Part shown: in pieces, positions 3,282 through 61,396 of the stretch
How positions within the stretch are numbered: position 1 is the stretch's first letter
Layout: every line of letters starts with the position of its first letter
Source: a virus
Strand: one strand, 5' to 3'
Virus record (IMG/VR): IMGVR_UViG_3300007735_000797
Coordinates: 1-64,000 of that record
Length of the DNA stretch: 64,000 bases
The notes under the pieces: model-generated
What the model saw: the letters and a program-made list of their open reading frames with translations, nothing else
Told to the model about the DNA's origin: nothing
Databases searched by the model: none
Translations under genes and position numbers: made by a program

Positions 3282-3428
3282 TAGCACCTATCGATATTCT
3301 CGCAGAAATATTCCTGTCCGACTAGTCAGATCGACCGTGGAACCTTGCACAGACCCCGGGGCTAGCCCACCCCCCTCAAAAATCTCAAAAAGGGTCCCTC
3401 CCCAAAACCTCCCCCAAAAATTAAAAAT

Positions 3429-3451
3429 GGGTCCCCCCTATAGGATCCCCC
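3429..3451 (+). repeat. Cassette stem-loop GGGTCCCC...GGATCCCC, copy A
   Basis: First clear copy of an approximately 23-bp element found at 3429, 3957, 4168 and 4516, with degenerate forms near 3392, 4131, 6096 and 6198. Its ends GGGTCC and GGATCCC can pair with a one-base bulge. It stands just upstream of a late promoter and a start codon, and probably acts as a terminator or spacer between gene cassettes. Confidence 0.6.
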
Positions 3452-3455
3452 ATTC

Positions 3456-3462
3456 ATAAATA
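3456..3462 (+). promoter_or_regulatory. Late promoter ATAAATA
   Basis: A T4-type late promoter core (T4 consensus TATAAATA) lies 5 bases before the ATG at 3468. Confidence 0.6.
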
Positions 3463-3467
3463 AAAGT

Positions 3468-3947
3468 ATGAATTGGTTTAGAGACTTATCGGAATCTTAC
3501 ATCTATCTCACAGAATCACAATTTTGGCCTGATTGGGCTAGATCTGGTTCTATGATAAGCGCAATACAAAAAAATAAAACAAATAAATCTGAATCCGTTG
3601 TTGGTCATATTGCTCATATTGAGAAGCATCCAGAATTTCCTGAAGAGGGATATCTTGCTCATATTATGACTGATGGTGGTCATGTTCATACTTTCTTTAT
3701 GGATAGAAGATCAGGAACACCTAGAAGGGGAGATAGAGTAGAATTATTTCCTTACTTACAAAAAATTCCCGGAGCAGCTTCCACGCCAAGATTAGATTTG
3801 GCAGGAGCTGAATATGAAAGATATCAGGGTAGAGCACAAGACGTAGGAACTCATGCTGATACTGGTGAGCCTATAATTGGAACTATTGAAGGTCCAGCTG
3901 CAACAGCTGTTTTTAAGTTTTATGATTACATGAAAAAGGAACTCTAA
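3468..3947 (+). CDS. Hypothetical protein, 159 aa, possible capsid-targeted
   Basis: Function is not recognised. The N-terminus carries two (L/I)-x-E sites (D-L-S-E at 6-9 and Y-L-T-E at 13-16), the cleavage pattern of the T4 prohead protease gp21, so it may be packaged like the neighbouring proteins; its fit to the targeting consensus is looser. The middle is His-rich (G-H-I-A-H, G-G-H-V-H) with a probable beta fold. It is an isolated cassette flanked on both sides by GGGTCCCC stem-loops, with its own late promoter. Confidence 0.7.
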   Translation: MNWFRDLSESYIYLTESQFWPDWARSGSMISAIQKNKTNKSESVVGHIAHIEKHPEFPEEGYLAHIMTDGGHVHTFFMDRRSGTPRRGDRVELFPYLQKIPGAASTPRLDLAGAEYERYQGRAQDVGTHADTGEPIIGTIEGPAATAVFKFYDYMKKEL

Positions 3948-3956
3948 ATTAAAAAT

Positions 3957-3980
3957 GGGTCCCCCCTTTAGGATCCCCCA
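3957..3980 (+). repeat. Cassette stem-loop, copy B
   Basis: Same element as at 3429-3451, placed 10 bases after the stop codon of the preceding gene. A CCCAAATAATTC stretch follows, but no gene starts there. The 223 bases from 3981 to 4203 hold no gene. Confidence 0.6.
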
Positions 3981-4044
3981 GTTCCCAAATAATTCTTACA
4001 AAAACACCCACAATACAGAGACTATCTGTTACAAATAGAGAAGT

Positions 4045-4073
4045 ATGTCGAAAAAAATTAAATAAATCGACAT
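4045..4073. other. Inverted repeat in a gene-free gap
   Basis: A perfect 7-bp stem ATGTCGA (4045-4051)/TCGACAT (4067-4073) has a 15-base A/T-rich loop. A further TCGACAT copy lies at about 4096-4102. Within the gene-free stretch 3981-4203 this is the only structure seen apart from a degenerate cassette element near 4131. Confidence 0.4.
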
Positions 4074-4167
4074 GTTATCTGGACATGTTTAAGGGATCGA
4101 CATAGAGTAGTACCCCCTTTTCTTTTTCATGGGTCTCCCCGTCACCTCCAAAGTAAAAAATAAATTT

Positions 4168-4190
4168 GGGTCCCCTCCATAGGATCCCCA
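4168..4190 (+). repeat. Cassette stem-loop, copy C
   Basis: Near-identical to copy D at 4516-4538. It is immediately followed by a late-promoter-like CTAAATAA and the ATG at 4204. Confidence 0.62.
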
Positions 4191-4191
4191 C

Positions 4192-4199
4192 CTAAATAA
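4192..4199 (+). promoter_or_regulatory. Late-promoter variant CTAAATAA
   Basis: TAAATA core 5-10 bases before the start at 4204, in the same position as the other late promoters of this region. The first base of the consensus ATAAATA differs. Confidence 0.45.
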
Positions 4200-4203
4200 T
4201 ATC

Positions 4204-4506
4204 ATGAAGCTTTCAAAAATACTAATCGTGATCTTTCTCTGTATTTCTCTACTTACATCTCCTGTAGTAGCATCTTCTCAAGTAAAAATAATTCCAATTC
4301 AGGACATTCTCTTTCTTGTTCCTGATTTTGATGATGCTCCTGACTTCAATCTAAATCAAGGTATTACTCAATCTGGTAATTTTATTGGAAACAAAAAACC
4401 AACAAAATTAACAAAAGAAAAAGAAAAAGAACTCTTGGAGCTTCTACAAGAATTCTTTCCGGGTTCGAAACTCAAAATTTGGAATGGTAATTTAATAGTT
4501 CGATAA
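4204..4506 (+). CDS. Small secreted protein with signal peptide, 100 aa
   Basis: Residues 1-24 form a classic Sec signal peptide: Lys-containing start, a hydrophobic core of about 14 residues (I-L-I-V-I-F-L-C-I-S-L-L) and an A-S-S cleavage region. The mature part has about 75 residues, with a Lys/Glu-rich helix near residues 68-82 and a short beta C-terminus. It therefore probably acts in the periplasm or outside the infected cell; its target is unknown. It is a stand-alone cassette with stem-loops on both sides and its own late promoter. Confidence 0.7.
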   Translation: MKLSKILIVIFLCISLLTSPVVASSQVKIIPIQDILFLVPDFDDAPDFNLNQGITQSGNFIGNKKPTKLTKEKEKELLELLQEFFPGSKLKIWNGNLIVR

Positions 4507-4515
4507 TCTTTTCAT

Positions 4516-4538
4516 GGGTCCCCTCCATAGGATCCCCC
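4516..4538 (+). repeat. Cassette stem-loop, copy D
   Basis: GGGTCC/GGATCCC arms as in copies A-C. The late promoter TATAAATA begins 4 bases after it and the next start codon is at 4555. Confidence 0.62.
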
Positions 4539-4541
4539 GGC

Positions 4542-4549
4542 TATAAATA
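4542..4549 (+). promoter_or_regulatory. Late promoter TATAAATA
   Basis: Exact match to the T4 late consensus, 5 bases before the ATG at 4555. Confidence 0.7.
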
Positions 4550-4554
4550 ATTCC

Positions 4555-5658
4555 ATGCTCTCTTTCGCTCAATATTTAAATGAAGCCTTAAGTGACATAC
4601 AAAGGCTATATGTTAAAGATGTTATGTACCCCATGGGTAGACCTTCACCGGAAACGAGAAGTACTGAGTATTCTGATTCTTTGTTTGGCATGGACCCAAA
4701 TTCTATAAGAGGTCCTTTTAAAGATGGAACTGTTTTAGATAATGGCAATACAGTTGTTTTTGATATGCCGAAAGAAGGGTTAAAATTTGATGCGCCCACT
4801 TGGCTTAAAGGCCATTTAGATTATATGGGTTATGATGTTCATGATTATAAAAATGGATTAGCGATACGAAAAGGTGGAACTCGCCCAATAAAAATTGGAA
4901 AATTATTCTCAAAAGAATTAGAACCACCTAAAGATTTAGATAATATGAGTGTTGATGAAATTAATGAGTATCAATCTAGAAAAAAGAATCATACTGGTTT
5001 TGGGAAATGGTACAACTCCGATGATATGCGAGTTTTGGCTAATACCGATTTGCAAATTTTAATATCTAGAGATCCATATAAAGTGGCAGAAATGTCAACC
5101 AACAAACAAAGAATTAATAGTTGTATGAATTTAGGTATTTGCCCCCAAAGAGATATTGAAGGTAAGTCCAATTTAGTTATTGATGGTAGATTTGTTGATT
5201 TAAATAAAGAATTTAATATAAATCCTGATGATCCTCGGCGTACTGGACAAAATGCTCATTACGTCGAAAGTGCTCTTCATGCTGGAGCACATATTGCATA
5301 TCTTATAGCTGCTGGGGATCATGATTTAAAAAATCCTTTTGCTAGGGTTTTACTTGAACCTTTTCATTCAAATATTTCTAGCTCATTAAGTTCGATCAAT
5401 AAACTTAATAAGTATCGGGGAGTATTTGATCAATTGCAAGTTCAAAATGATACTATACTAAGAGTATCGCCAAAAATTTATAGCTCTCCAACAATACGCT
5501 ATTCTGATGTTATAAATCGTTTTAAAGATATCATAAATGGCGAATTGATAAGAAGAATGCCCGGTAAACGAGGAACTGTATATCATATTGATCCATTACT
5601 TTACAAAGATCATGACATCACACATCATTTTGGTTTAGGGTATGTGGATCATAAATAA
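4555..5658 (+). CDS. Capsid-targeted protein, short paralogue, 367 aa
   Basis: It starts with M-L-S-F-A-Q-Y-L-N-E|A, matching the T4 internal-protein targeting signal (M-K-T-Y-Q-E-F-I-A-E|A) with a predicted gp21 cut after residue 10. The rest is homologous to the first half of the protein at 7631-9946: shared blocks are D-N-G-N-T-V-V-F-D-M-P, R-D-P-Y-K-V-A-E-M-S, S-C-M-x-L-G and A-G-D-H-D-L-K-N-P. The same blocks resemble an uncharacterised family of large-phage virion proteins. Function is unknown. It has its own late promoter. Confidence 0.75.
   Translation: MLSFAQYLNEALSDIQRLYVKDVMYPMGRPSPETRSTEYSDSLFGMDPNSIRGPFKDGTVLDNGNTVVFDMPKEGLKFDAPTWLKGHLDYMGYDVHDYKNGLAIRKGGTRPIKIGKLFSKELEPPKDLDNMSVDEINEYQSRKKNHTGFGKWYNSDDMRVLANTDLQILISRDPYKVAEMSTNKQRINSCMNLGICPQRDIEGKSNLVIDGRFVDLNKEFNINPDDPRRTGQNAHYVESALHAGAHIAYLIAAGDHDLKNPFARVLLEPFHSNISSSLSSINKLNKYRGVFDQLQVQNDTILRVSPKIYSSPTIRYSDVINRFKDIINGELIRRMPGKRGTVYHIDPLLYKDHDITHHFGLGYVDHK
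5651..5657 (+). promoter_or_regulatory. Late promoter ATAAATA inside a gene end
   Basis: The promoter core lies within the last codons and stop of the preceding gene and 5 bases before the ATG at 5663. Confidence 0.62.
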
Positions 5659-5662
5659 TTCC

Positions 5663-6085
5663 ATGCTCTCTTTTAAACAATACATTACTGAAGTAGAAAA
5701 CTGGGATTCCCAAATGACTGGGGATGGGCAAGGAAGTCTTTATTCAGTAAAGCATTTGTATGATTACGCTAATCAAGTAGCTGGAGAACCAGTCATGCTT
5801 CCCATCAAGCATACTGATGGAATAGAGTGGTGGCATAAATCATATTCTTTGGAAAATCCTGACCATGTGGAGAGAATGCAAAATGCCGATACAACATTCC
5901 CAGTATTGGCCATTGAAACTGGAGAGGATCAATATACTGTCGCAGATGGTTTGAATAGAATCATGAAAGCTCACAGTGTTGAAGGAAAGACACATGTTCC
6001 TGCTATGGTTTTGTCGAGGGAACAATTTGATGATTTTAACTACATGACGAGAAGAATAAAAAATATCGCAAGATCTGCTGGGTAA
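5663..6085 (+). CDS. Capsid-targeted protein, 140 aa, ParB-like character
   Basis: The start at 5663 gives M-L-S-F-K-Q-Y-I-T-E|V, a capsid-targeting-like N-terminus. An in-frame ATG 21 bases upstream would lie inside the previous gene and remove this match. The body contains P-V-M-L-P-I-K-H, then T-V-A-D-G-L-N-R-I-M-K-A-H and H-V-P-A-M-V-L-S. This order resembles the ParB/sulfiredoxin-like fold (D-G-x-H-R/N-R), but the match is too short to be sure. Own late promoter at 5651-5657. Confidence 0.7.
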   Translation: MLSFKQYITEVENWDSQMTGDGQGSLYSVKHLYDYANQVAGEPVMLPIKHTDGIEWWHKSYSLENPDHVERMQNADTTFPVLAIETGEDQYTVADGLNRIMKAHSVEGKTHVPAMVLSREQFDDFNYMTRRIKNIARSAG

Positions 6086-6095
6086 AAATAAAAAT

Positions 6096-6120
6096 GGGTC
6101 CCCTGCCAAAGATTCCTCCC
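6096..6120 (+). repeat. Degenerate cassette stem-loop
   Basis: GGGTCCCC is kept but the right arm is GATTCCTCCC. A second degenerate copy (GTGTCCCCTCCC) lies near 6198. Between them is an A/T-rich 80-base stretch with no gene. Confidence 0.4.
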
Positions 6121-6222
6121 AAAATAAAAAAAGGAATCTTTTGGTTCTTCTTTTTCTTTTTTGCAACTTGTTATTTGGTGGCCGTTTTTTCTTCTATGTG
6201 TCCCCTCCCATGGTTCCATTTG

Positions 6223-6230
6223 TATAAATA
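6223..6230 (+). promoter_or_regulatory. Late promoter TATAAATA
   Basis: Consensus late promoter 67 bases upstream of the start at 6297. It is farther from its gene than the others, which leaves room for a short leader. Confidence 0.6.
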
Positions 6231-6296
6231 AAGTAAATGGTTTGAGATGATACCACGGGGCGTGTTGTGCTCTTTTTCCACACAAAGGAGCTACAG

Positions 6297-7001
6297 ATGT
6301 CACACAGTCATAAAGGTTGTTCTGGTTGCGAAGAGTTATCAGAAAAATTAGAAAAAGAAAAACAAGAAAAACACAATAGTTGCAAAGAGGCTCTATTAGC
6401 CCATCAAACAAAAATTACTGGTCTTGAAAAGAAACTTTTCGCCATGACCATTGCTGGAGCAGTTGCTACAGCAGTGATTGGTAAAGAGCTTGTGGATAAG
6501 ATCATGGACAGCCTCAATCAGGTTCAGGAAGTTCAGCAGAAGCTTGAGGAGACTGTTGGAGGGGGTGAGAAGAGCGTTGGCCTTGTGATGCCTTCTAATG
6601 GCATTCAAAGACCATACCAGTTCTATAACTCTGGTGGTTCTTCTGTAAATTTATTTAATAAAACTTCTTACATGGACTATCCCGGATTTGCTCCAGAACA
6701 AGAAGATGAGTCAACACCATCTTCATTCGTTCCTGTTTGGGCCTCTGCGATTGCAAGGAACAAATCAAATTCACAAAAATTTGAAATGACTTTGCCACCT
6801 CAAAATGAAATTGAAAATTTTGATTTTACTCAGATTTCGATTTCAGACCCACCAGTTATTTCACTTGCCAGCATTGATTCCTCTGCTGTTGACTTTCAAG
6901 ATGCTCCCAGCTTTCGAATGGCTGCGTCTGTGGTCCCAGAGCCATCAACCATTTCAGTCTTTTTAGCACAGTCATTTTTCAACCAAAGGAGAAGATCTTG
7001 A
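6297..7001 (+). CDS. PEP-CTERM-like protein with coiled coil, 234 aa
   Basis: The start at 6297 is fixed by an AAAGGAG site 6 bases upstream. Residues 10-46 form a charged coiled coil with paired Cys; 47-62 are a hydrophobic span (A-M-T-I-A-G-A-V-A-T-A-V). A second coiled coil follows, then a Ser/Pro-rich region. The C-terminus is V-P-E-P-S-T, about 12 mostly hydrophobic residues and R-R-R. That is the layout of the PEP-CTERM sorting signal recognised by exosortase in some Gram-negative bacteria. It overlaps the next gene, which ends in a related signal. It is a likely surface protein; its role is unknown. Confidence 0.72.
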   Translation: MSHSHKGCSGCEELSEKLEKEKQEKHNSCKEALLAHQTKITGLEKKLFAMTIAGAVATAVIGKELVDKIMDSLNQVQEVQQKLEETVGGGEKSVGLVMPSNGIQRPYQFYNSGGSSVNLFNKTSYMDYPGFAPEQEDESTPSSFVPVWASAIARNKSNSQKFEMTLPPQNEIENFDFTQISISDPPVISLASIDSSAVDFQDAPSFRMAASVVPEPSTISVFLAQSFFNQRRRS

Positions 7002-7618
7002 TCAGAGAAACAGTAGCAGCACTTGTCATCACATCGTCCGCATCCGCAAATTTAGTCAATGGTGGTTTTGAGAGCTTTCCCGCATGGGGCTACAGTTTTT
7101 ATTCTGGAACAGATCCTCAAAGTGGCTGGGCAACTACTGCACCAGACAACTTGATTGAAGTCTGGGAAAATGGATTTCTAGGAGTTCCTGCCTATGAAGG
7201 AAATTCCTTTGCAGAATTAAATGCAAATTATGCTTCTACCCTATACCAGAATGTAAATGGACTCGGTGACTTCAATCAAATCAATTGGCATTTTGCTCAC
7301 CGTGGAAGAGATGGTGTTGATACCATGCGCTTGACCATCACCGATTTTGGTACAGATCAGACTGCTGGTGGTGGAGATGATACCGTTTTATTTCAACAAG
7401 AATTTTCTGCTGATAACACAGCATGGCAAGTTCACGTCGGAACTATTACTTCAATTGGCAATCTGACTAGCTTTGCATTTGAAGCGGTGAATGCAGTTGG
7501 TGGAAGCACACAAGGCAATCTAATCGACTGGTGCGGGTTCGGAACAAATGCAGTTCCTTCACCCGGATGCTTGGTTTTGTTGGGCTTTGCTGGTCTGTTT
7601 AACTATAGAAGAAGATAG
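6998..7618 (+). CDS. Exported protein with PEP-CTERM-like tail, 206 aa
   Basis: It starts at TTG (overlapping the previous stop) with an AAAGGAG site 6 bases upstream. Residues 1-18 form a short signal-peptide-like segment ending A-S-A. The mature protein begins N-L-V-N-G-G-F-E, a common opening of choice-of-anchor beta-sandwich domains in PEP-CTERM proteins, and continues as a Gly/Asp-rich beta domain. The end, V-P-S-P-G-C plus a hydrophobic stretch and Y-R-R-R, resembles the P-A-P-G-A-L variant typical of planctomycete sorting signals. It is translationally coupled to the preceding gene. Confidence 0.75.
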   Translation: MIRETVAALVITSSASANLVNGGFESFPAWGYSFYSGTDPQSGWATTAPDNLIEVWENGFLGVPAYEGNSFAELNANYASTLYQNVNGLGDFNQINWHFAHRGRDGVDTMRLTITDFGTDQTAGGGDDTVLFQQEFSADNTAWQVHVGTITSIGNLTSFAFEAVNAVGGSTQGNLIDWCGFGTNAVPSPGCLVLLGFAGLFNYRRR

Positions 7619-7619
7619 C

Positions 7620-7626
7620 ATAAATA
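7620..7626 (+). promoter_or_regulatory. Late promoter ATAAATA
   Basis: It begins just after the stop of the preceding gene and ends 4 bases before the ATG at 7631. Confidence 0.62.
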
Positions 7627-7630
7627 TGGT

Positions 7631-9946
7631 ATGCTATCCTTTTATAAATTTTTAACTGAAGCACTAACCGCCAATCAAAAATATTGGGTTGATCACTTTG
7701 TTGATTGGCAAAATCCATTAAAGAGGTCTGTCGATTTTTCAAATCATCTTTTTGATAAAGACAATCCAATCGGCGGTGGTACTGTAATGGACAATGGTAA
7801 CACAGTGGTGTTTGATATGCCGACAGAAGGATTAAAGCTACAAGCACCAGCTTATCTTGCCGATCATTTAGACAACTTGGGATATGATGTTCACGACTTC
7901 AAAGCTGGATTAGCTGTTAGAAAAGGACACACTCGCCCAATTTCAATTGCAAAGGTTTTATCTCAACCAATCGCAGAACCAGAAGGCATTCCATATGAAG
8001 CGGCTCATCCGGCATGGCGAGATCATAGAGAAAAAAGTCTTCAACAAAAGCGAATCTTGGATGAATACAATCGTGATGATGTTCGTGTTGCTATGAGGTC
8101 GCCTTTACAGATTGTCATAACAAGACATCCTTATAAAGTTGCCGAGATGTCTTCAAACAAACCAAGATGGACAAGCTGCATGGCACTTGGTACTTGTCCA
8201 GATGTTGATATTGAGGGGCAAGAACCACCAGAGCGAGAATATGGCGAACCCTTCTATAATGAAATGCCCGGATATCAAGAACCCGGATCAAATGCCAAAT
8301 ATGTTAAGAAAGCACTTACGGGTGGAGCACATATGGCATATTTGATTACGGCTGGAGACCATGATTTAAAAAATCCTTTAGCCAGAATCATGCTTGAGCC
8401 ATTTCATAGCGAGGATATGAAAGATAAAATCTATAGAGCGCAAAATCCCATAGGTTATGACTATAAAGATGTTTCATGGGAAGAAGTGAAGCCCAAACAT
8501 ACAATATTAAGAGCTTCGCCTGTTACATATGCCTCTAGTAATTTAAAAAGTAATGGCAAGTCATTAATAGATGCATTTAAGCATACTTTAGATTTTCATT
8601 TATCCGAAAAGATGCCATTGAAGTCATATCAAGATAATGTTCACAAATATTATATCGAACCAATTTTATATCGTGATCACGATGATCGTGAGATACTTCC
8701 ATCTTCTGAAACTACCAATCGTGTATTAAAAATGGCATCTTCTCCATTTGAACATCATCAATTAGAAGCACTTGAAGATCCAGAAGTACACAGAGCTTTA
8801 CTAGCTTATACATTAGACAATCCAATTTATGGTAACACTGTTGATGATAGAGTAAGTCATGATATATTCAGATCTCCCCACGAAGCTGTAGTTTTAAAGG
8901 CACTTGAAAAAGTTCCATCATTGTTGAAAAATAGAATATCTTTGACAAGACTTTCGTATTCGAAACATAAAGCAGTAAGAAGTAAAGCTTTTGAATTTGC
9001 TGATTTGATGGATCCTCATGAACTTATTCGATCTCCACATGAAGAATTTGCTCTAAAGGGATTGGATTATATAAATTCATATTTAGAACGAGCAAGTCCA
9101 TTTGATCAAACAGCAGCAAAATATTTAAGATTAGCTATACATTCGCCTCATGACAAAGTATTTGATTCAATTATCAATAATCCAAATGCCCAAAAACAAT
9201 TAAATTTTCATAGTCTTTTAATTGGGCAATTGCATGATAATGATGATGCAAAATCATTGAAATCTTTTAATAAACTAATGAGTGATGTCAAAGATGGAAC
9301 TATAAAGTCTGAGAGTGTTTTAGATAATATAGCACACTCAGCCATAACTGCTGCTCCTACTATCCCAGTATTGGAAGCTGCGGCAAATGAACCATCGTTG
9401 ATTGATCGTCTTGTTCCCGGTTCTGAACTACATAGAGTATTTACCTTCGCAAGAACAGAATATGATCCGCAGCGTAAAAAAGTATTTACAGATCTTTCTA
9501 TAAAATTGGCAAAGTCTGATGCATTCCACAAAACGCCATATTATCACCAACATGAGCGCGATAATGTAAGTGATGATGTGGGAGGAATTCCTTCTGTTTT
9601 ATCGGAAATGGCTGTAAGAAATTTAGGTGCTGCCTTGATTAGCGATTCGGAAGAGGTAAGAAACGAAGCATTAAAACATAAAGATTTAGGGAAAATATTA
9701 AAAGATAGACGATTATTTTCTGAGATTAGATTTAATTTTTATGAACCTGATCACAAAAACACTGCAATGGCAATCTACAACCATCCAGACTTCAATTCAA
9801 AAGATATGGAATTTGAAATACGAAATTCTGTGCATGATGAAATCAAATCCGATCCTAGAGGATTTACCACAAATCCTTTGTTAGATACGGTTGAAGATGT
9901 TTTTGGAAGAAGATCGGCAAGAAGTAGATTTAGAATGGAAGGTTGA
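7631..9946 (+). CDS. Capsid-targeted protein with helical repeats, 771 aa
   Basis: The N-terminus M-L-S-F-Y-K-F-L-T-E|A matches the capsid-targeting pattern. Residues about 15-370 are homologous to the protein at 4555-5658 (shared D-N-G-N-T-V-V-F-D-M-P, H-P-Y-K-V-A-E-M-S and A-G-D-H-D-L-K-N-P). Residues about 370-740 are a helix-rich tandem array with recurring R-S-P-H-E/S-P-H-D and A-L-E motifs, likely HEAT-like repeats. The result is a large scaffold-type internal protein of unknown activity. It is the biggest packaged candidate in the locus, with its own late promoter. Confidence 0.75.
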   Translation: MLSFYKFLTEALTANQKYWVDHFVDWQNPLKRSVDFSNHLFDKDNPIGGGTVMDNGNTVVFDMPTEGLKLQAPAYLADHLDNLGYDVHDFKAGLAVRKGHTRPISIAKVLSQPIAEPEGIPYEAAHPAWRDHREKSLQQKRILDEYNRDDVRVAMRSPLQIVITRHPYKVAEMSSNKPRWTSCMALGTCPDVDIEGQEPPEREYGEPFYNEMPGYQEPGSNAKYVKKALTGGAHMAYLITAGDHDLKNPLARIMLEPFHSEDMKDKIYRAQNPIGYDYKDVSWEEVKPKHTILRASPVTYASSNLKSNGKSLIDAFKHTLDFHLSEKMPLKSYQDNVHKYYIEPILYRDHDDREILPSSETTNRVLKMASSPFEHHQLEALEDPEVHRALLAYTLDNPIYGNTVDDRVSHDIFRSPHEAVVLKALEKVPSLLKNRISLTRLSYSKHKAVRSKAFEFADLMDPHELIRSPHEEFALKGLDYINSYLERASPFDQTAAKYLRLAIHSPHDKVFDSIINNPNAQKQLNFHSLLIGQLHDNDDAKSLKSFNKLMSDVKDGTIKSESVLDNIAHSAITAAPTIPVLEAAANEPSLIDRLVPGSELHRVFTFARTEYDPQRKKVFTDLSIKLAKSDAFHKTPYYHQHERDNVSDDVGGIPSVLSEMAVRNLGAALISDSEEVRNEALKHKDLGKILKDRRLFSEIRFNFYEPDHKNTAMAIYNHPDFNSKDMEFEIRNSVHDEIKSDPRGFTTNPLLDTVEDVFGRRSARSRFRMEG

Positions 9947-9962
9947 TAATAGATCTGTAAAT

Positions 9963-9970
9963 CTAAATAA
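9963..9970 (+). promoter_or_regulatory. Late-promoter variant CTAAATAA
   Basis: TAAATA core 4-9 bases before the ATG at 9974; same variant as at 4192. Confidence 0.5.
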
Positions 9971-9973
9971 TAT

Positions 9974-10570
9974 ATGCGAACTTTTATCCAATATCTTTTT
10001 GAAGCAAAGGACATTGACCCTTATGTAAATGTACGTCCTTCTTATGCTATTGAATCTCCTTGGTACACCAATTCTCGCCAAGTATCTTTAGATGACAAAG
10101 GTAGAGAGATACCCTCCGAAAAATATGAAGGTATTCCGGGTACTGGACCATATTCAGATATTCAATCAAGGGATGTAAAAAATTCTACGAATAGCATATT
10201 CAATGAACTAAAAGATCATTTGCACAATTCAAGAATGCAGTCTTGGGAAATGGGAGATAGACAAGGGCCGATGCCAACACAAGAAGGATCGCAAGATGCT
10301 GCATATTCTTTAATTTCAAATTTTAAAGCACTTCCAATAATTAGAAAAATTTTAAGAGAAAAGCATAAAAAATCTGGTGGAAGTTCCATTCAAGTTGAAA
10401 CAAGACTCACGCGCTTGGATACTCAACTTGAAGATATGGCCTACGCACATCCACAGTTTAATTTGTGGGCACAAGCAAATAGTGATATGATCGCGGCTAA
10501 TCTAGCTAAAGGCGGTCACATCACCGACCACATCGATCAATTCATGGCAACTCAAAAACAGAAAATATAA
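9974..10570 (+). CDS. Capsid-targeted protein, 198 aa
   Basis: It begins M-R-T-F-I-Q-Y-L-F-E|A, a good capsid-targeting match with a predicted gp21 cut after residue 10. The remainder is soluble and helical, with a basic stretch (I-R-K-I-L-R-E-K-H-K-K) near residue 120; no known domain is recognised. The next gene starts one base after its stop and also carries a targeting segment, so the two are probably made together. Confidence 0.7.
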   Translation: MRTFIQYLFEAKDIDPYVNVRPSYAIESPWYTNSRQVSLDDKGREIPSEKYEGIPGTGPYSDIQSRDVKNSTNSIFNELKDHLHNSRMQSWEMGDRQGPMPTQEGSQDAAYSLISNFKALPIIRKILREKHKKSGGSSIQVETRLTRLDTQLEDMAYAHPQFNLWAQANSDMIAANLAKGGHITDHIDQFMATQKQKI

Positions 10571-10571
10571 C

Positions 10572-11417
10572 ATGAAATCATTTTCCGAATTTTTAACTGA
10601 AGATATTGAACTACTTATTGAAAATGAAGGTAGAGTAAATTTTTTTGGAGTAGATCATTTAGGTGCGGATGCTAAAGAAATAATAAGAGCAGTTGAAAGA
10701 GTACAAACAAAAACTCCTAACCTCAAAGGAAAAATAATTTTTAAAGAGGGTGCAAAACATATTAACATATTTCAGATCGATAGTGAAGGACGCGAAAAAC
10801 TATTAGGGGGTTTTAGTATGGGTCGCGGGAAATCTGGACCTCAAGGTCCATTAATTAGAAAAATAGAAACTGCATTATTTGGTGAAACATATCCACAACG
10901 AATGTCTCGCCTGAGAAGTGAACGCTCTAGCCGTTTAACAACCGCAATACCCACACCAGACTCTGTACAGTCATTAGAAGATCGCCTAACCCTGTTGCGT
11001 GGGCTTCCTAGAAAAGAAGGAAGCGACAGAACTAAGAGAGTGGATGATTCTATTACAAGAATAGAAGCTAGACTTGAAAAGGCAAAAACTTCAGTAAGTG
11101 CTGCCATGACTCCAGCCAAACCAACACAAACACCAACCCCAAGAAGAGCATTTACTTCGAAGGATGTTTTAACTGCTCTTGGAATGGGAACCGTTGCTAC
11201 CGCATTAGGAAATGTTTGGGATGCAGCTGGTGCTTTGGTGACTCAGCCTTCTATACAAGATAGAATGACGGCAGAGGAAGATGCCCAAACTGATCTTGGT
11301 CTAGGATTTAATCTAGGCTCTGATGGGGAACTAGAAGCCGATCCAGCAGGATTTAAAGCAGTGAGGGATAGACAGAAGAGGGGTGAGAATTATCCACCCA
11401 CTCTATTCCCGAGATGA
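10572..11417 (+). CDS. Capsid-targeted protein, 281 aa
   Basis: The N-terminus M-K-S-F-S-E-F-L-T-E|D matches the capsid-targeting pattern. Residues 15-100 are a compact alpha/beta region of unknown type. Residues 110-180 are Arg/Glu-rich and probably coiled coil. A small hydrophobic segment (V-L-T-A-L-G-M-G-T-V-A-T-A-L-G) near residues 200-214 could touch membranes. The tail is acidic. It is co-transcribed with the gene at 9974-10570 and ends against the convergent gene at 11418. Confidence 0.7.
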   Translation: MKSFSEFLTEDIELLIENEGRVNFFGVDHLGADAKEIIRAVERVQTKTPNLKGKIIFKEGAKHINIFQIDSEGREKLLGGFSMGRGKSGPQGPLIRKIETALFGETYPQRMSRLRSERSSRLTTAIPTPDSVQSLEDRLTLLRGLPRKEGSDRTKRVDDSITRIEARLEKAKTSVSAAMTPAKPTQTPTPRRAFTSKDVLTALGMGTVATALGNVWDAAGALVTQPSIQDRMTAEEDAQTDLGLGFNLGSDGELEADPAGFKAVRDRQKRGENYPPTLFPR

Positions 11418-12665
11418 TTATTTACCTTTAGTTTTGTTTTCTTGAGCCTTTTTCTTTTCAGCTTCAAGCCTTTCTCTTTCTGCTCTTACCTTATCAATCA
11501 TACCAGCGGATTTTTTTGATTCTCTAGCTTCTTTAGCTTGCGTTTCCACATCAAAGGCATTTTGTACAGCTTTATCTTCTGCTTGTTTCATCATATCAGC
11601 TAGTTCTTGTTTGCTCATCGTAATTGTCTCTTCCGGCGTTTTAGTTTGTTTTGGTTCTTGCTTCGCTGGAAGTTCTTGTTTTGGTGCTGCTTGTGCTGTT
11701 GCAGTTTGTTTTTGAGCATTTGGATTTTCTGGAATTTTTAATTCCTGCCCGATGCCAATTTTATTAGGATTTGGTATTTGATTTAATTTCGCTAAATCAT
11801 CAACGGTTATCTTATAACCTCTTTCCTTCGAAAGTTTTTGTGCTATGACACCCAAAACATCTCCCTCTTGAACTTTATATGCTCCATTACCGACTTGTGG
11901 CTCTGGTACATTTTCTGTTTGTGGCGGTGGCATCTGGGGTGGTGTTTGTGTTGCCCTCGCAGTTTTTAATAAAGCAGTAATAGTTTTTTCCTCTTCGGGA
12001 TATCTTGATTGTGTTACAGCATTTTTTATCTCCTGACTATTACCCGATGCTAATATTTTATCTCTTCTAATTTCAAATACATTTTTAGTAATAGCAAAGG
12101 GACAATTTTTTTTGCCGTCTGGGCATCTAGCCCTTGCGTCTAAAAATATTCGTGGACCGCCTGATTGACCATGCTGTACATTTGTAGAATAAAACAACTC
12201 ATTCAAACCTTCATTTGTTTCAATAAGATTTCCTAATTCTGAATCTTTTTTCTTTAGATTTTTTAAAGGTTCTTCGTAATATCTAATATCTGTAAATGTT
12301 TGAGCTGCCTTCGATAACAAATCTGCATGGGATTTAGATAAATTTCTCCATTGATTTGCGAATGCTCCATTATAATCACCAAAATCTGTGAGACCTATTA
12401 AAGATCTTAATGGTGAATCTTCTGGTTCATTAGTTTTAATATAATTAACAAAATCTTCAGGAGTTCCCACTGCACTGGCAAACTGATGTGTACCATAACT
12501 AACTCCTCCCTTGTCGCCTGTACCGCGAGATATAGTTCCTATTCCTTGGTTACTTTCATATTGTTGACTAACATAACCAAGTTTCCGTTTTGGTGGAGTT
12601 TGTTTCTTCGATTCCATCAAATTTAAAATAAACTTGTATTGTCTGTCTATAGAAAAGTAGTGCAT
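11418..12665 (-). CDS. LysM protein with hydrolase-like N-domain, 415 aa
   Basis: The N-terminal domain (about residues 30-230) opens Y-V-S-Q-Q-Y-E-S-N-Q-G, T-I-S-R-G, G-G-V-S-Y-G-T-H-Q-F-A-S, a block seen in chitosanase/lysozyme-like modules of some phage and VgrG-linked proteins. A Pro-rich linker leads to one LysM domain (about 262-312) that should bind peptidoglycan. The tail is a Lys/Glu coiled coil. The start is uncertain: 12665 follows the upstream stop closely, and an ATG at 12617 is also possible. It probably degrades cell wall, either packaged or in lysis. Confidence 0.65.
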   Translation of the reverse strand: MHYFSIDRQYKFILNLMESKKQTPPKRKLGYVSQQYESNQGIGTISRGTGDKGGVSYGTHQFASAVGTPEDFVNYIKTNEPEDSPLRSLIGLTDFGDYNGAFANQWRNLSKSHADLLSKAAQTFTDIRYYEEPLKNLKKKDSELGNLIETNEGLNELFYSTNVQHGQSGGPRIFLDARARCPDGKKNCPFAITKNVFEIRRDKILASGNSQEIKNAVTQSRYPEEEKTITALLKTARATQTPPQMPPPQTENVPEPQVGNGAYKVQEGDVLGVIAQKLSKERGYKITVDDLAKLNQIPNPNKIGIGQELKIPENPNAQKQTATAQAAPKQELPAKQEPKQTKTPEETITMSKQELADMMKQAEDKAVQNAFDVETQAKEARESKKSAGMIDKVRAERERLEAEKKKAQENKTKGK

Positions 12666-12669
12666 AGTT

Positions 12670-13392
12670 TTATTCCAGTGTAAGTTCTTTGTCGAGTGCG
12701 CGATTAGCAGCATTGCGAAGCTTGTCAATATAGCCACGGCTACGAAGTTCCTTGAACAACAAGTTTTCCATAGAAAACTCTCCTCCAGATTCAAGTCCTT
12801 CGTCACGCATATTGCTGATTTTCTTGAGTAGTGATCTATAAAGAGTTTCATCAGTTGACTCAGTTTCAATCAAATGATCTATTTTTTGCATGTAGGATTC
12901 TACTTTCTTTGTGAGAAAGCTATCCTTTTCAAAATTTAGATCTTTATATTTGGGTTTAGATACCCATTGGTCATTAAGTAGAGAATAAACACCCTGATCT
13001 TTGTGGGTCACTTGGGTTATGGGTTGTGCAAATATTTCAACATCTGCCCCATAAACCTTGATTTTATGAGATAGACTCCAGATGGTTTTTTTATCTTTAA
13101 AATAATCAAGAATTAAATCCTTGTCCATTTCAAAAAAGGTGGGGTCAATTACTAAATGGATATCCAAATCTGAATTATTTGTATAATTGTAATTGGCATT
13201 TCCCCCTGTCATGACGATATCAATAATAGCTTCTTCCGGGACGTTGGCAAATTTGGCCCATTTGTAGCCTATCTTGGTCAATGTCTTTTTGACCTGTGGT
13301 TTGAGCGTTTCTCCATCCCAGTAAATAGGATTGAGTTTATTGTGGTACTCAAGAGTTAATTTTTCATTTAATAGGGACAAGAAGTTCATCAT
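12670..13392 (-). CDS. Nucleotidyltransferase-fold protein, capsid-targeted, 240 aa
   Basis: Residues 61-77 read M-T-G-G-N-A-N-Y-x(5)-N-S-D-L-D, the polymerase-beta-type nucleotidyltransferase signature (G-G/S, then D-x-D; D75 and D77). The third acidic residue is in G-A-D-V-E-I-F (D117). The enzyme should transfer a nucleotide to a protein, RNA or small molecule; the substrate is unknown. The N-terminus M-M-N-F-L-S-L-L-N-E|K fits the capsid-targeting pattern, so it may be injected with the DNA, as T4 Alt (an ADP-ribosyltransferase) is. Late promoter at 13395-13401. Confidence 0.75.
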   Translation of the reverse strand: MMNFLSLLNEKLTLEYHNKLNPIYWDGETLKPQVKKTLTKIGYKWAKFANVPEEAIIDIVMTGGNANYNYTNNSDLDIHLVIDPTFFEMDKDLILDYFKDKKTIWSLSHKIKVYGADVEIFAQPITQVTHKDQGVYSLLNDQWVSKPKYKDLNFEKDSFLTKKVESYMQKIDHLIETESTDETLYRSLLKKISNMRDEGLESGGEFSMENLLFKELRSRGYIDKLRNAANRALDKELTLE

Positions 13393-13394
13393 GA

Positions 13395-13401
13395 TATTTA
13401 T
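13395..13401 (-). promoter_or_regulatory. Late promoter ATAAATA (minus)
   Basis: Read leftward, ATCATAAATATC lies immediately before the start at 13392. It faces a second late promoter for the opposite strand only 6 bases away. Confidence 0.6.
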
Positions 13402-13407
13402 GATTAC

Positions 13408-57041: not shown

Positions 57042-57439
57042 AGCATAGACTAAAAAAGATTGTTTTTGAGTCCTTGGACAAGAACAAACTCCAATTTAAT
57101 ATTAAAAATGAGCTTTCTTTTAGAGTTAGCCAATTAATAAACGAAAAAATGCTTTTTGAGCAGAACAGAATGCTACAAAAATGCACTCCAAAAGTTTCGA
57201 CCGATTCTATGGTTAGATTTGTTTCTGTAATTAAGGAATCCCTACAATCCAAATATCCTATAGACATTAAATTAAACAACGGCGAAAATATAACTATTAA
57301 TAGCAAAGAAGGGCAGAAGTTGGCTATTTTGTTTGATAATCTAAATGAAAATAACCGTGTCAAAATGACTTCTTCGCTATTTGAGAATAGCAAAAACTAC
57401 AAAAATATTTTAGATTTCAGCAAAAATATAAGGAAATAA
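57038..57439 (+). CDS. Prohead-region protein, 133 aa
   Basis: Lies in the place of T4 gene 67 (prohead core) between portal and protease but is not clearly similar. A basic, helical N-terminus (K-H-R-L-K-K-I-V-F-E|S) contains an I-V-F-E site that gp21 might cut; Lys/Asn-rich throughout. A core protein is a reasonable inference from position. It overlaps gp20 by 4 bases. Confidence 0.55.
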   Translation: MKHRLKKIVFESLDKNKLQFNIKNELSFRVSQLINEKMLFEQNRMLQKCTPKVSTDSMVRFVSVIKESLQSKYPIDIKLNNGENITINSKEGQKLAILFDNLNENNRVKMTSSLFENSKNYKNILDFSKNIRK

Positions 57440-57440
57440 A

Positions 57441-57749
57441 ATGTCATCAAAGAAAATTTTCAAACAAATCCTTGAAGAGAATGTAGTCGGAGCTAGAAAC
57501 TCCGTCCGTGAAATGCTTTATTCTAAGCTAAAACAAAGACTCAATGAAAAGTATATTGAAGTATCAAGAACATATTTCAATGAAGGTAAAATGGAAGATG
57601 TTGATGGCGATGGTCAGGTCGGTAATGATACCGAAGACGCTATTGCTACCAAGTTCATGAAGATGGGAATGCCTCAAGATAAAGCAGTTGCAAAGGCAAA
57701 GAGCATAACTGCTAAAAAGGGCAGCAAAGATAAGAAGAACAAAAAATGA
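57441..57749 (+). CDS. 68: Prohead core protein gp68-like, with Ca-loop motif
   Basis: A 102-aa basic protein just upstream of gp21 as in T4 (gp68: 141 aa). Helical N-terminus with R-E-M-L-Y-S-K-L-K-Q-R-L. The middle has D-V-D-G-D-G-Q-V-G-N-D-T-E-D, a D-x-D-x-D-G calcium-binding-type loop. The C-terminus is Lys-rich. Likely a core component degraded by gp21; the Ca-type loop is worth noting because it is not known from T4 gp68. Confidence 0.6.
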   Translation: MSSKKIFKQILEENVVGARNSVREMLYSKLKQRLNEKYIEVSRTYFNEGKMEDVDGDGQVGNDTEDAIATKFMKMGMPQDKAVAKAKSITAKKGSKDKKNKK

Positions 57750-58393
57750 AGTTAATCACCGAAACAATTGAAAATGTTCGTGTAATAACTGAAAGCGTCG
57801 ATGGAAATAACAAGAATTATTTCATCGAAGGTATCTTCATGCAAGCTGATACCAAGAATAGAAATGGTAGAACTTACCCCAAGCCTATTCTTATGAATGA
57901 AGTTAGACGTTATATCAACGAACATGTCAATAATAAGAGAGCCTTCGGTGAACTAAACCATCCAACTGGTCCTTCTGTCAATCTAGACAGAGTCTCACAT
58001 CTTATCACAGAACTCCACGAACGTGGAAATGATGTTTATGGTAAGGCTAAAATTCTTGATACCCCAACCGGAAAAATTGTTAAGAGTCTTTTAGGAGAAG
58101 GCGTTCAGCTTGGAGTTTCTTCAAGAGGAATGGGTTCTCTAAAGAAGACCAAAGAAGGTGTCAATCAAGTACAAGAAGACTTCATGCTTGCTGCGGTTGA
58201 CATTGTAGCAGATCCTTCTGCTCCACATGCGTTTGTCAACGGCATAATGGAAGGTAAAGAATGGGTATGGAGTAATGGTGTTCTTAAAGAACAGACCATC
58301 TCCAACTATAAGAAAGAAATTCTAAAGACTCCAAGCAAGCAACTTCAAGAAAAAGTTCTTAAGACATTTGAACACTTTTTAAGAAATCTATGA
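57746..58393 (+). CDS. 21: Prohead core protease gp21
   Basis: Serine protease that cleaves scaffold, capsid and internal proteins at (L/I)-x-E sites. Active-site regions: G-E-L-N-H-P-T-G-P (His72) and L-G-V-S-S-R-G (Ser125/126). Acidic sites D-I-V-A-D-P-S-A-P-H-A-F follow. 215 aa (T4: 212). It is central to the proposed packaging of the (L/I)-x-E-tagged proteins encoded at 3468-13392. Coupled by short overlaps to neighbours. Confidence 0.94.
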   Translation: MKLITETIENVRVITESVDGNNKNYFIEGIFMQADTKNRNGRTYPKPILMNEVRRYINEHVNNKRAFGELNHPTGPSVNLDRVSHLITELHERGNDVYGKAKILDTPTGKIVKSLLGEGVQLGVSSRGMGSLKKTKEGVNQVQEDFMLAAVDIVADPSAPHAFVNGIMEGKEWVWSNGVLKEQTISNYKKEILKTPSKQLQEKVLKTFEHFLRNL

Positions 58394-58901: not shown

Positions 58902-59954
58902 ATGAGAAACAGAAAAAAATATATCGAAGATGAAATTCTAAGCGAAGAGATGGAAGATGAGACTGAGGAAGAAGAAATGGATGATTCCGAGGAACAAATG
59001 GATGATGATTCCGAAGATGAAGATACTTCTTCTAACCCCGGCAAAAAGGCAGCTGGATTCGTTGACTTTGATGTTAACGGAATGGGCAGCATGGATGCTA
59101 ATGGCGGTAGAGTATTCATTCAAACAGATCCAAGAATGGATCCAAACATGGCCAATCTTGCTCCCTACAACCAAATGACTATTGCTACCCCCAAGGTATC
59201 ACCTGTTCAGATGAAGGAAGCATTTGACGCAATCTTTGCGGATGCTGCTCTTTCAGAAGAAGTTGTAAACAAGCTACAGACCGTATTTGTTGCTGCACTC
59301 AACGAAAAAGTTGAAGAGCACGCTAAGAACACAACCAAGATTCTTGCCGAGCAATACGAAAAGAATCTTGAAATCATGGCAGGAACATTGGCTGAAAAGC
59401 TTGATGAGTATCTTGGCTATGTCGTTGAAGAATGGATGGACGAGAACAAGGTTGAAGTAGAACGCGGCATTAAGACTCAGGTTGCTGAAAATTTCATTCG
59501 TGGTCTAAAAAATCTATTCGAAGCACATTACATTGATGTTCCAGAAGAGAAGTACAACCTTGTCGATGAACTATTTGAACAGAATGATGAATTGACAAGA
59601 ACCATGAACAAGGTCATTAATGAAAACATGAACCTCAAGAAGGAAAGTGTTGCCAATAAGATCTCAAGCATCTTCCTAGAAGAATGCCATGGATTAACCG
59701 ATACACAAGTCGAAAAACTAGGCTCGCTTGCTAAGGGTCTCGATTTTGATGGAGAAAATTCATTTAGAGGTAAGCTACAATCGCTCAAGGAAGCTTATTT
59801 CTTCAGAAAACAAGAAGCCAGACCAGCTCCAGTAGCTCCAGTAGCTAGTCCAGTAATGGATCTACATGAGATGGTTCAGCCGACTGCGCCAACTATAGAC
59901 AATGAAACCGTCGCTCAAGTGGCTAGAGCAATGAGTAGACATATTAAGAAATAA
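58902..59954 (+). CDS. 22: Prohead scaffold protein gp22
   Basis: Major scaffold of the prohead core, destroyed by gp21 on maturation. The N-terminus is strongly acidic (runs of Glu/Asp over residues 8-42). The diagnostic helical part has Y-L-G-Y-V-V-E-E-W-M-D-E-N-K-V-E-V-E-R-G-I and G-L-K-N-L-F-E-A-H-Y-I-D-V-P-E-E-K. 350 aa, longer than T4 (269) as in many marine relatives. Codon use shifts to GC-richer codons, as in gp23. Confidence 0.93.
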   Translation: MRNRKKYIEDEILSEEMEDETEEEEMDDSEEQMDDDSEDEDTSSNPGKKAAGFVDFDVNGMGSMDANGGRVFIQTDPRMDPNMANLAPYNQMTIATPKVSPVQMKEAFDAIFADAALSEEVVNKLQTVFVAALNEKVEEHAKNTTKILAEQYEKNLEIMAGTLAEKLDEYLGYVVEEWMDENKVEVERGIKTQVAENFIRGLKNLFEAHYIDVPEEKYNLVDELFEQNDELTRTMNKVINENMNLKKESVANKISSIFLEECHGLTDTQVEKLGSLAKGLDFDGENSFRGKLQSLKEAYFFRKQEARPAPVAPVASPVMDLHEMVQPTAPTIDNETVAQVARAMSRHIKK

Positions 59955-59992: not shown

Positions 59993-61396
59993 ATGTTCGA
60001 AGATTCAACACCGTATGATATTTTAACTGAAAAGTGGAACCCCGTCCTAAATCACGACGCAGTTCCCGCTATTGAAGATGTATACAAGAAGAAAGTAACC
60101 GCAGTCCTTCTTGAGAACCAAGAAGCTGCTATGCGTCAGCAGTATCTAACCGAAACTTCAGCCAATGCTATTGGTGGTGGTTTCGCTCTTAACACCAATG
60201 CCAATCCCAACACCAATCTAGCTGGTTATGACCCAATCCTAATCAGCCTCGTTCGCCGCGCCATGCCAAACCTCATGGCCTACGACATCGCTGGTGTTCA
60301 GCCCATGACCGCTCCTACTGGACTCATTTTTGCAATGAGATCTAAGTATGACGGTCAGGGCGGAAATGAAGCTCTATTCGCTGAACCATTTGCTAAGTTC
60401 AGCGGTTCAGGTGCAACCTCAGCTGGTGCTGCAACTGATACAGATCCAACTGCTGGTGTAGCTCCAGTAAGTTTCTCTGGACTAACTGTTACTAAGGCTT
60501 CAATTTTTGGACATGAGTTCCAAGCATTAAACACAGCTAGAGCTGAAGGTTTAGGAGAATCTGCTTCTAATGTATTTAAAGAAATGGCATTTGCTATCGA
60601 CCGTATTGCCGTAACTGCTAAGACTCGCGCTCTAAAGGCAGAGTATACCACTGAGCTTGCTCAGGACCTTAAGGCTGTTCACGGACTTGACGCTGAAACC
60701 GAACTCGCCAACATCCTAAGCACTGAAATTCTTGCTGAAATGAACCGCGAGCTTATCCGCAACATTTATCACGTTGCCAAGCTTGGTTGCCAGCAGTCAG
60801 ATCTTTTCTACAAGTCATCATCACCCGGTACTGGTGGTGCATATGACCTAGCTCTCGACTCAGACGGTCGTTGGAGCGCAGAACGCTTCCGTGGCCTCAT
60901 GTTCCAGATTGAACGTGAAGCTAACCTAATTGCTAAGGACACTCGTCGCGGTAAGGGTAACTTCATCGTCTGCTCATCAGACGTTGCTTCAGCCCTCACC
61001 ATGGGTGGCTTCCTCCAGTTGACCCCAGCTCCTGCTACCCAGCTTGAAGTTGATGATACTGGAAACACCTTCGCTGGTATTCTAGCTGGTAAGATGCGCG
61101 TTTACATTGACCCCTACAGCAGCGCAACCCAGAACTTTGTCTGCGTTGGCTATAGAGGTGCAAGCCCCTACGACGCTGGTCTCTTCTACTGCCCATACGT
61201 TCCACTCCAGATGGTTCGTGCAGTCGATCCTGACACCTTCCAGCCCAAGATTGGCTTCAAGACCCGCTACGGCATGGTCCAGAACCCATTCGTCCGCGTT
61301 TCTGGTTCACCAGACGGCGCAAACATGTCCGAAGGTAAGAATCAGTACTATAGACTCTTCGCAGTCACCAACCTCCACGGTAACACTGGTAACTGA
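59993..61396 (+). CDS. 23: Major capsid protein gp23
   Basis: Forms the hexamers of the head. Family blocks: P-N-L-M-A-Y-D-I-A-G-V-Q-P-M-T-A-P-T-G-L-I-F-A-M, then the R-G-K-G-N-F-I-V-C-S-S-D-V and Y-R-G-A-S-P-Y-D-A-G-L-F-Y-C-P-Y regions. A gp21 maturation site is likely after Y-L-T-E (residues 51-54), just before the A-I-G-G-G-F region, the same L-T-E|x pattern as in the capsid-targeted proteins. 467 aa (T4: 521). GC-rich codons mark high expression. A strong terminator follows at 61421. Confidence 0.97.
   Translation: MFEDSTPYDILTEKWNPVLNHDAVPAIEDVYKKKVTAVLLENQEAAMRQQYLTETSANAIGGGFALNTNANPNTNLAGYDPILISLVRRAMPNLMAYDIAGVQPMTAPTGLIFAMRSKYDGQGGNEALFAEPFAKFSGSGATSAGAATDTDPTAGVAPVSFSGLTVTKASIFGHEFQALNTARAEGLGESASNVFKEMAFAIDRIAVTAKTRALKAEYTTELAQDLKAVHGLDAETELANILSTEILAEMNRELIRNIYHVAKLGCQQSDLFYKSSSPGTGGAYDLALDSDGRWSAERFRGLMFQIEREANLIAKDTRRGKGNFIVCSSDVASALTMGGFLQLTPAPATQLEVDDTGNTFAGILAGKMRVYIDPYSSATQNFVCVGYRGASPYDAGLFYCPYVPLQMVRAVDPDTFQPKIGFKTRYGMVQNPFVRVSGSPDGANMSEGKNQYYRLFAVTNLHGNTGN

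Follow-up and report, generated by a model that had tools for sequence, protein, structure and literature searches.

The 64,000-nucleotide stretch analysed here (hereafter the window) covers the first 64 kb of the 100,042-base virus record IMGVR_UViG_3300007735_000797. Its positions 3468 to 13392 carry a locus that we read as a group of late genes encoding internal proteins of the head. These proteins start with a capsid-targeting sequence (CTS) of the T4 IPIII type and would be packed into the head, cut after Glu10 and delivered with the genome; we give this reading a probability of about 0.8. They share the ten-residue address label of T4 and are therefore probably loaded into the head along with the DNA and delivered at infection. 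The T4-type capsid targeting proposed in the initial annotation of the locus is supported by the conservation of residues in the leader, by the gp21/gp23 cleavage site of the phage, by late promoters and by the virion proteome of a relative.

The initial annotation had listed seven genes (named here by the position of their start codon) whose products begin with leaders ending in (L/I)-x-E. All seven open reading frames (ORFs) are where it placed them, the third being best begun at 5663, an ATG after the first one of its ORF (5642). Six of them (4555, 5663, 7631, 9974, 10572 and, on the minus strand, 13392) start exactly with M-x-x-[FY]-x-x-[FYL]-[LI]-x-E, i.e., with the aromatic residue 4, hydrophobic residue 7, Leu or Ile at 8 and Glu at 10 of the T4-type leader. 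The claim fits the protein at 3468 only in part, because it keeps F4 and L7 but has its LxE at residues 14-16. To the original list we would add a possible eighth member, the lysozyme gene at 11418-12665 (minus). This gene and 3468 both seem to have extended leaders, with F4 and then a late LxE, resembling T4 IPI, and are weaker candidates. The enrichment of the motif was confirmed in the whole record: given the genome's own amino-acid composition and its 703 ATGs opening at least 60 codons, 0.11 exact leaders are expected by chance and 6 are observed (Poisson p ~2e-9). The rest of the record has one looser match only, at an internal ATG at 57209. The features of the locus are as follows.

3455..3462, plus strand: late-promoter-like CATAAATA, 5 nucleotides (nt) 5' of the 3468 ATG
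3468..3947, plus strand: orphan of 159 amino acids (aa) with the IPI-type extended leader MNWFRDLSESYIYLTE (F4, L7, LTE to residue 16); weaker candidate
4542..4549, plus strand: late-promoter-like TATAAATA, 5 nt 5' of the 4555 ATG
4555..5658, plus strand: 367-aa CTS protein, MLSFAQYLNE, paralogue of 7631
5650..5657, plus strand: late-promoter-like CATAAATA, 5 nt 5' of the 5663 ATG
5663..6085, plus strand: 140-aa CTS protein, MLSFKQYITE, phrog_17560 (E 1e-12; function not known)
7619..7626, plus strand: late-promoter-like CATAAATA, 4 nt 5' of the 7631 ATG
7631..9946, plus strand: 771-aa CTS protein, MLSFYKFLTE; first ~350 residues in common with 4555
9974..10570, plus strand: 198-aa CTS protein, MRTFIQYLFE, orphan, 28 nt 3' of 7631
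10572..11417, plus strand: 281-aa CTS protein, MKSFSEFLTE, with a ~106-aa C-terminal module PAGFKAVRDRQKRGE
11418..12665, minus strand: VgrG3-like lysozyme domain with LysM; possible extended leader MHYFSIDRQYKFILNLME
12670..13392, minus strand: 240-aa CTS protein, MMNFLSLLNE, polymerase-beta-type nucleotidyltransferase, phrog_36119
13395..13402, minus strand: late-promoter-like CATAAATA, 2 nt 5' of the nucleotidyltransferase's first Met codon

The same genome encodes the protease expected to cut such leaders and, as had been claimed, a major head protein with a matching site. From 55.5 kb the gene order is T4-like, with the portal, a gene in the gp67 position, gp21, gp22, gp23, the tail tube protein, UvsY and a UvsW-like helicase. 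The site YLTE in gp23 resembles the ends of the leaders (YLNE, YITE, FLTE and YLFE). The head genes that matter here are the following.

57441..57749, plus strand: prohead-core candidate, between portal and gp21, so placed by position alone
57749..58393, plus strand: gp21 prohead protease (PF03420, E 8e-44), with GELNHP and GVSSRG as in T4
58902..59954, plus strand: gp22 head scaffolding protein
59993..61396, plus strand: gp23 major head protein, with YLTE at 51-54 aligned to the T4 cleavage site FLTE

The genes of the locus also share a promoter-like sequence. NATAAATA is found 2-5 nt upstream of the ATG of 3468, 4555, 5663, 7631 and 13392 (minus), while 9974 and 10572 follow closely 3' of 7631. 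In the window genome, a late promoter 2-8 nt before the ATG precedes 4 of the 6 tagged ORFs and 5 of the 99 others. A similar bias is observed among environmental tag genes, where a late promoter lies 3-8 nt before the ATG in 12/34 CTS ORFs versus 24/1,215 others (p 2e-11). These promoter-like sequences suggest that the genes of the locus are expressed late, and we infer that their transcripts would be leaderless or almost so. Given the 2-nt spacing, the nucleotidyltransferase could start at either Met1 or Met2.

The motif can be evaluated in phages whose particles have been studied. Mutagenesis in T4 assigned residues 4 and 7 of the leader to targeting and residues 8 and 10 to processing (PMC9026906). 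Applied to T4 ORFs of at least 60 aa, the exact rule retrieves IPII and IPIII and nothing else; the leader of IPI, MKTFKEF...TITE, ends at residue 19. The corresponding DNA pattern has one more match in T4, the 54-aa gp61.1 (NC_000866, 18966-19130; function not known), which begins with the full leader MKTFKEFIKE and is possibly an overlooked internal protein of T4.

The proteome of cyanophage S-CREM2 provides the strongest independent evidence, because there motif proteins were detected in the particle. We translated all 219 annotated genes of this phage, searched them with the looser rule M..[FYLW]..[FYLIVMW][LIV].E, and compared the matches with the proteins listed in Table 3 of the published study (PMC10665884). 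According to this table, virion mass spectrometry detected all 4 of the 4 motif proteins of at least 60 aa versus 48 of the 182 others (p 0.006); outside the structural region, the counts are 4/4 and 11/113 (p 2e-4). The four are a SAM hydrolase (MKDFDSFLEE), gp13 (MKDLHSFLTE), an APH-like kinase (MKRFDAFLTE) and a cytidylyltransferase (MKNFSSFLTE). A fifth match, in a 55-aa ORF, is not among the virion proteins of the table, and gp156, a relative of the window's nucleotidyltransferase, is a virion protein with the shortened leader MKKLISE. The list of virion proteins includes gp12 (7704-10313, minus), annotated as Cas9, in which residues 19-25 (FASFMAE) resemble a leader; the gene sits within the run of virion genes gp12-gp15. 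The S-CREM2 proteomics does not tell the head interior from other sites, and one might imagine that the proteins of the locus belong to the tail or surface of the virion, or co-purify with it, and that the leader has another role. This is very unlikely, since the leader agrees position by position with the T4 head-interior tag and also matches the cleavage sequence of the phage's own gp23.

In the nucleotidyltransferase, residues D75, D77 and E119, together with G63 and G64, are invariant across 50 sequences of the family, which corresponds to the polymerase-beta signature of GG/S followed by DxD and a third acidic residue. The protein of the window falls below the cut-off of PF01909, which is matched by 38 of the 50 family members at E <= 0.01. 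Its structural model has a confidence score (pLDDT) of 90, with low confidence in residues 1-8, and its nearest folds in Foldseek are CD-NTases and aminoglycoside adenylyltransferases (ANT), with low TM-scores. The enzyme is predicted to be catalytically intact. In 20 different ten-residue leaders of nucleotidyltransferases with a CTS, conservation is highest at positions 1, 4, 7, 8 and 10, and positions 2, 3, 5, 6 and 9 vary; the result is partly circular because the leaders were chosen with a looser form of the motif rule.

Tag and body behave as separate modules. The bodies had initially been described as unrelated, which must be corrected for a single pair: 4555 and 7631 are paralogues (46% identical). 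Their body is also present in the jumbo phages Atu_ph07 and JA29, in proteins lacking a CTS, and the alignment to these proteins begins one residue past the predicted cut, with A11-L12 invariant in the five proteins. At the nucleotide level, a 23-nt block at 4543-4565, with an exact copy at 5651, runs from the promoter into the first codons in both 4555 and 5663, whose bodies are unrelated. These identical nucleotides would fit a scenario in which the N-termini are alike because recombination copied a block of promoter plus gene start, the residues having no targeting role. We regard this as the least probable of the explanations considered: the remaining leaders have residues in common, not DNA, and use different codons, the same residue pattern returns in unrelated phages, and motif proteins occur in the virions of S-CREM2.

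The C-terminal ~106 residues of 10572 have a counterpart at the C-terminus of a tagged ADP-ribosyltransferase (ART)-like protein from another phage, L089 (E 1e-18 for the pair; the ART assignment of this protein is weak, E 0.002). A motif, PAGF[KR]AV, is common to three tagged proteins (the C-terminus of 10572-11417, L089:14254-15417 and L089:2704-3276), two of which have the ~106-aa module. We discarded a relationship between the 4555/7631 family and a CTS family with a WC motif (L109, L110), because hhalign aligned the leader alone. Modelling 4555 together with its paralogue gave no usable structure (pLDDT 37). Hairpin repeats GGGTCCCC...GGATCCCC at 3429, 3957, 4168 and 4516, with a diverged copy at 6096, were considered as cassette boundaries; their single-strand folding shows no advantage over shuffled sequences, except at 6096 (z -2.1), and this idea was dropped.

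The other bodies are mostly orphans or enzymes. Family searches gave no match for the 3468 protein, nothing in annotated phages matches 9974 or 10572, and the 5663 protein has only weak ParB/Srx-like (SbnI) matches (E 0.33 and 0.043). A search of the viral contigs for close relatives of 5663, 7631, 10572 and the 4555/7631 pair found the same phage only, or none. The lysozyme, whose gene was taken to start at the ATG 4 nt beyond the nucleotidyltransferase stop, is predicted to cut peptidoglycan.

This repertoire bears on whether the tagged proteins could belong to the head core or the scaffold. They would then be targeted and cut as gp67 and gp68 are, would aid head size or shape, and would be left inside or degraded instead of being delivered active. 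The gp21 site is also found in prohead-core proteins, and T4 IPIII affects both head assembly and host infection (PMC9026906; PMC9391042). We nevertheless consider it unlikely, since the bodies are mostly orphans or enzymes such as a lysozyme and a nucleotidyltransferase with an invariant catalytic triad, relatives carry ADP-ribosyltransferase, cytidylyltransferase and kinase domains, and the set of tag genes differs from phage to phage, whereas core proteins do not.

Under the preferred reading, in which the proteins are internal and delivered, the tag, and above all its residues 4 and 7, would pull the protein into the prohead core during head assembly. Cleavage by gp21 after Glu10 would leave the mature body in the head beside the DNA, and the body would enter the host with the genome at infection and act immediately, ahead of any phage gene expression. 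The T4 precedent and the proteomics of S-CREM2 argue strongly for the packaging and cleavage of the tagged proteins, and by analogy with T4 their delivery into the host with the DNA is the most likely outcome. A role of the cargo in anti-defence or host takeover is plausible, because relatives carry ADP-ribosyltransferases and a SAM hydrolase. Several points weigh on the other side. The S-CREM2 test involves four proteins only. In the nearest sequenced cyanophage relatives of the nucleotidyltransferase the leader is shortened (MKKLISE, MNLESFLEQ), and in many environmental relatives residues 4 and 7 are retained without the LxE, so cleavage is not universal. Many nucleotidyltransferases of L027-L034, L040-L065 and other loci start with MKTYRDLKLTL or MKSFQDLRLTL, as if targeted and uncut.

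The tag is found well beyond this genome. Scanning for the nucleotidyltransferase gene gathered 80 environmental loci, in which 26 of these genes have the full leader under a looser version of the rule. In the flanks, first ATGs give 35 matches to the exact motif, nucleotidyltransferases included, versus 0-4 with permuted positions and 0-2 with shifted ones. The exception among permutations (39 matches) swaps the overlapping classes FY and FYL. Arrays of tag genes are also observed elsewhere (a run of five in L109, four in L111, several in L110), with cargo domains including ADP-ribosyltransferase (PF03496, E 5e-10), cytidylyltransferase-like, phage lysozyme with LysM, and DUF6321. One environmental protein fuses tag, nucleotidyltransferase and lysozyme, mirroring the window, where the lysozyme gene starts 4 nt past the nucleotidyltransferase stop. 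In the 735-kb phage LR756501.1, about 15 ORFs begin with exact tags, one of them holding the same nucleotidyltransferase (L116-L127, L013:1065-2699), and the pattern has 18 matches versus 2 when reversed. Several of these ORFs are closely preceded by a TTTATATATAG-like sequence, not by NATAAATA, and a search for the protease in this genome gave only sub-threshold S77 matches. With moderate confidence, we propose that the T4 tag serves as a portable loading signal of general use, far outside the enteric phages and as far as this 735-kb phage. It would by sequence alone define a large class of injected effectors, with new cargo arising by the joining of tag and late promoter to new bodies. In a partial, limited search of the literature, we found no description of a T4-type tag in cyanophages or environmental phages.

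No gp23 in the phage collection reaches 60% identity to that of the window's phage. A 113-kb sister contig is 100% identical from window position 7065 onward in the stretches compared, and lacks 3400-6300, except for a match due to the paralogue. Because the sister contig begins at 7065, genes 3468, 4555 and 5663 are known from a single assembly. The first ~3.3 kb of the window look foreign (G+C 60% versus ~35% elsewhere) and may be an assembly chimera; the first 3.4 kb have no match in annotated phages. From ~3.4 kb on, composition and promoters are typical of the phage. Two ORFs at 6297-7618 have PEP-CTERM-like ends (VPEPST...RRRS and VPSPG...LFNYRRR; weak family match to NF038125, E 0.21), tails that are unusual for a phage and a possible hint of the host. 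PADLOC found nothing convincing.

The function of most phage proteins is unknown, and injected proteins usually come to light by mass spectrometry alone. A leader that can be read from sequence, and that was checked against the tabulated S-CREM2 proteome, offers a direct route to listing candidate injected proteins of uncultured phages, including the largest. Proteins entering with the DNA act ahead of the host response, and T4 IPI and IPIII show that they can decide host range: IPI acts against the GmrSD restriction enzyme. IPIII is needed on strain ECOR17 (PMC9391042).

Among known systems, the head ejection proteins of SPN3US-like giant phages and the Dar proteins of P1 travel in the head and are delivered. 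The 4555/7631 body is itself present in Dickeya and Erwinia jumbo phages; in jumbo phage JA29, however, the proteins have no T4-type leader, and nothing in its record matches PF03420. The SAM hydrolase, APH-like kinase, cytidylyltransferase and gp156 of S-CREM2 share with the locus CTS or CTS-like leaders and detection in virions; most cargoes differ, however, and the part of that study used here proposes encapsidation and does not discuss a targeting sequence (PMC10665884). T4 Alt, an injected ADP-ribosyltransferase, is also a large enzyme packaged via an N-terminal propeptide. The relative L098 has a CTS-bearing ADP-ribosyltransferase and the ART-like protein of L089 has a C-terminal module in common with 10572, but the domain search of the window's proteins turned up no ADP-ribosyltransferase. 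The closest parallel is with T4 IPI, IPII and IPIII, which have a 10-residue leader with the same conserved positions, a gp21-cut LxE, adjoining genes and variation from phage to phage (PMC9026906). In contrast to these, the window has six to eight genes in a single block, bodies of up to 771 aa and some enzyme domains. The system itself is that of T4, its members described here are new, and its wider spread, including the 735-kb phage, is the more interesting part.

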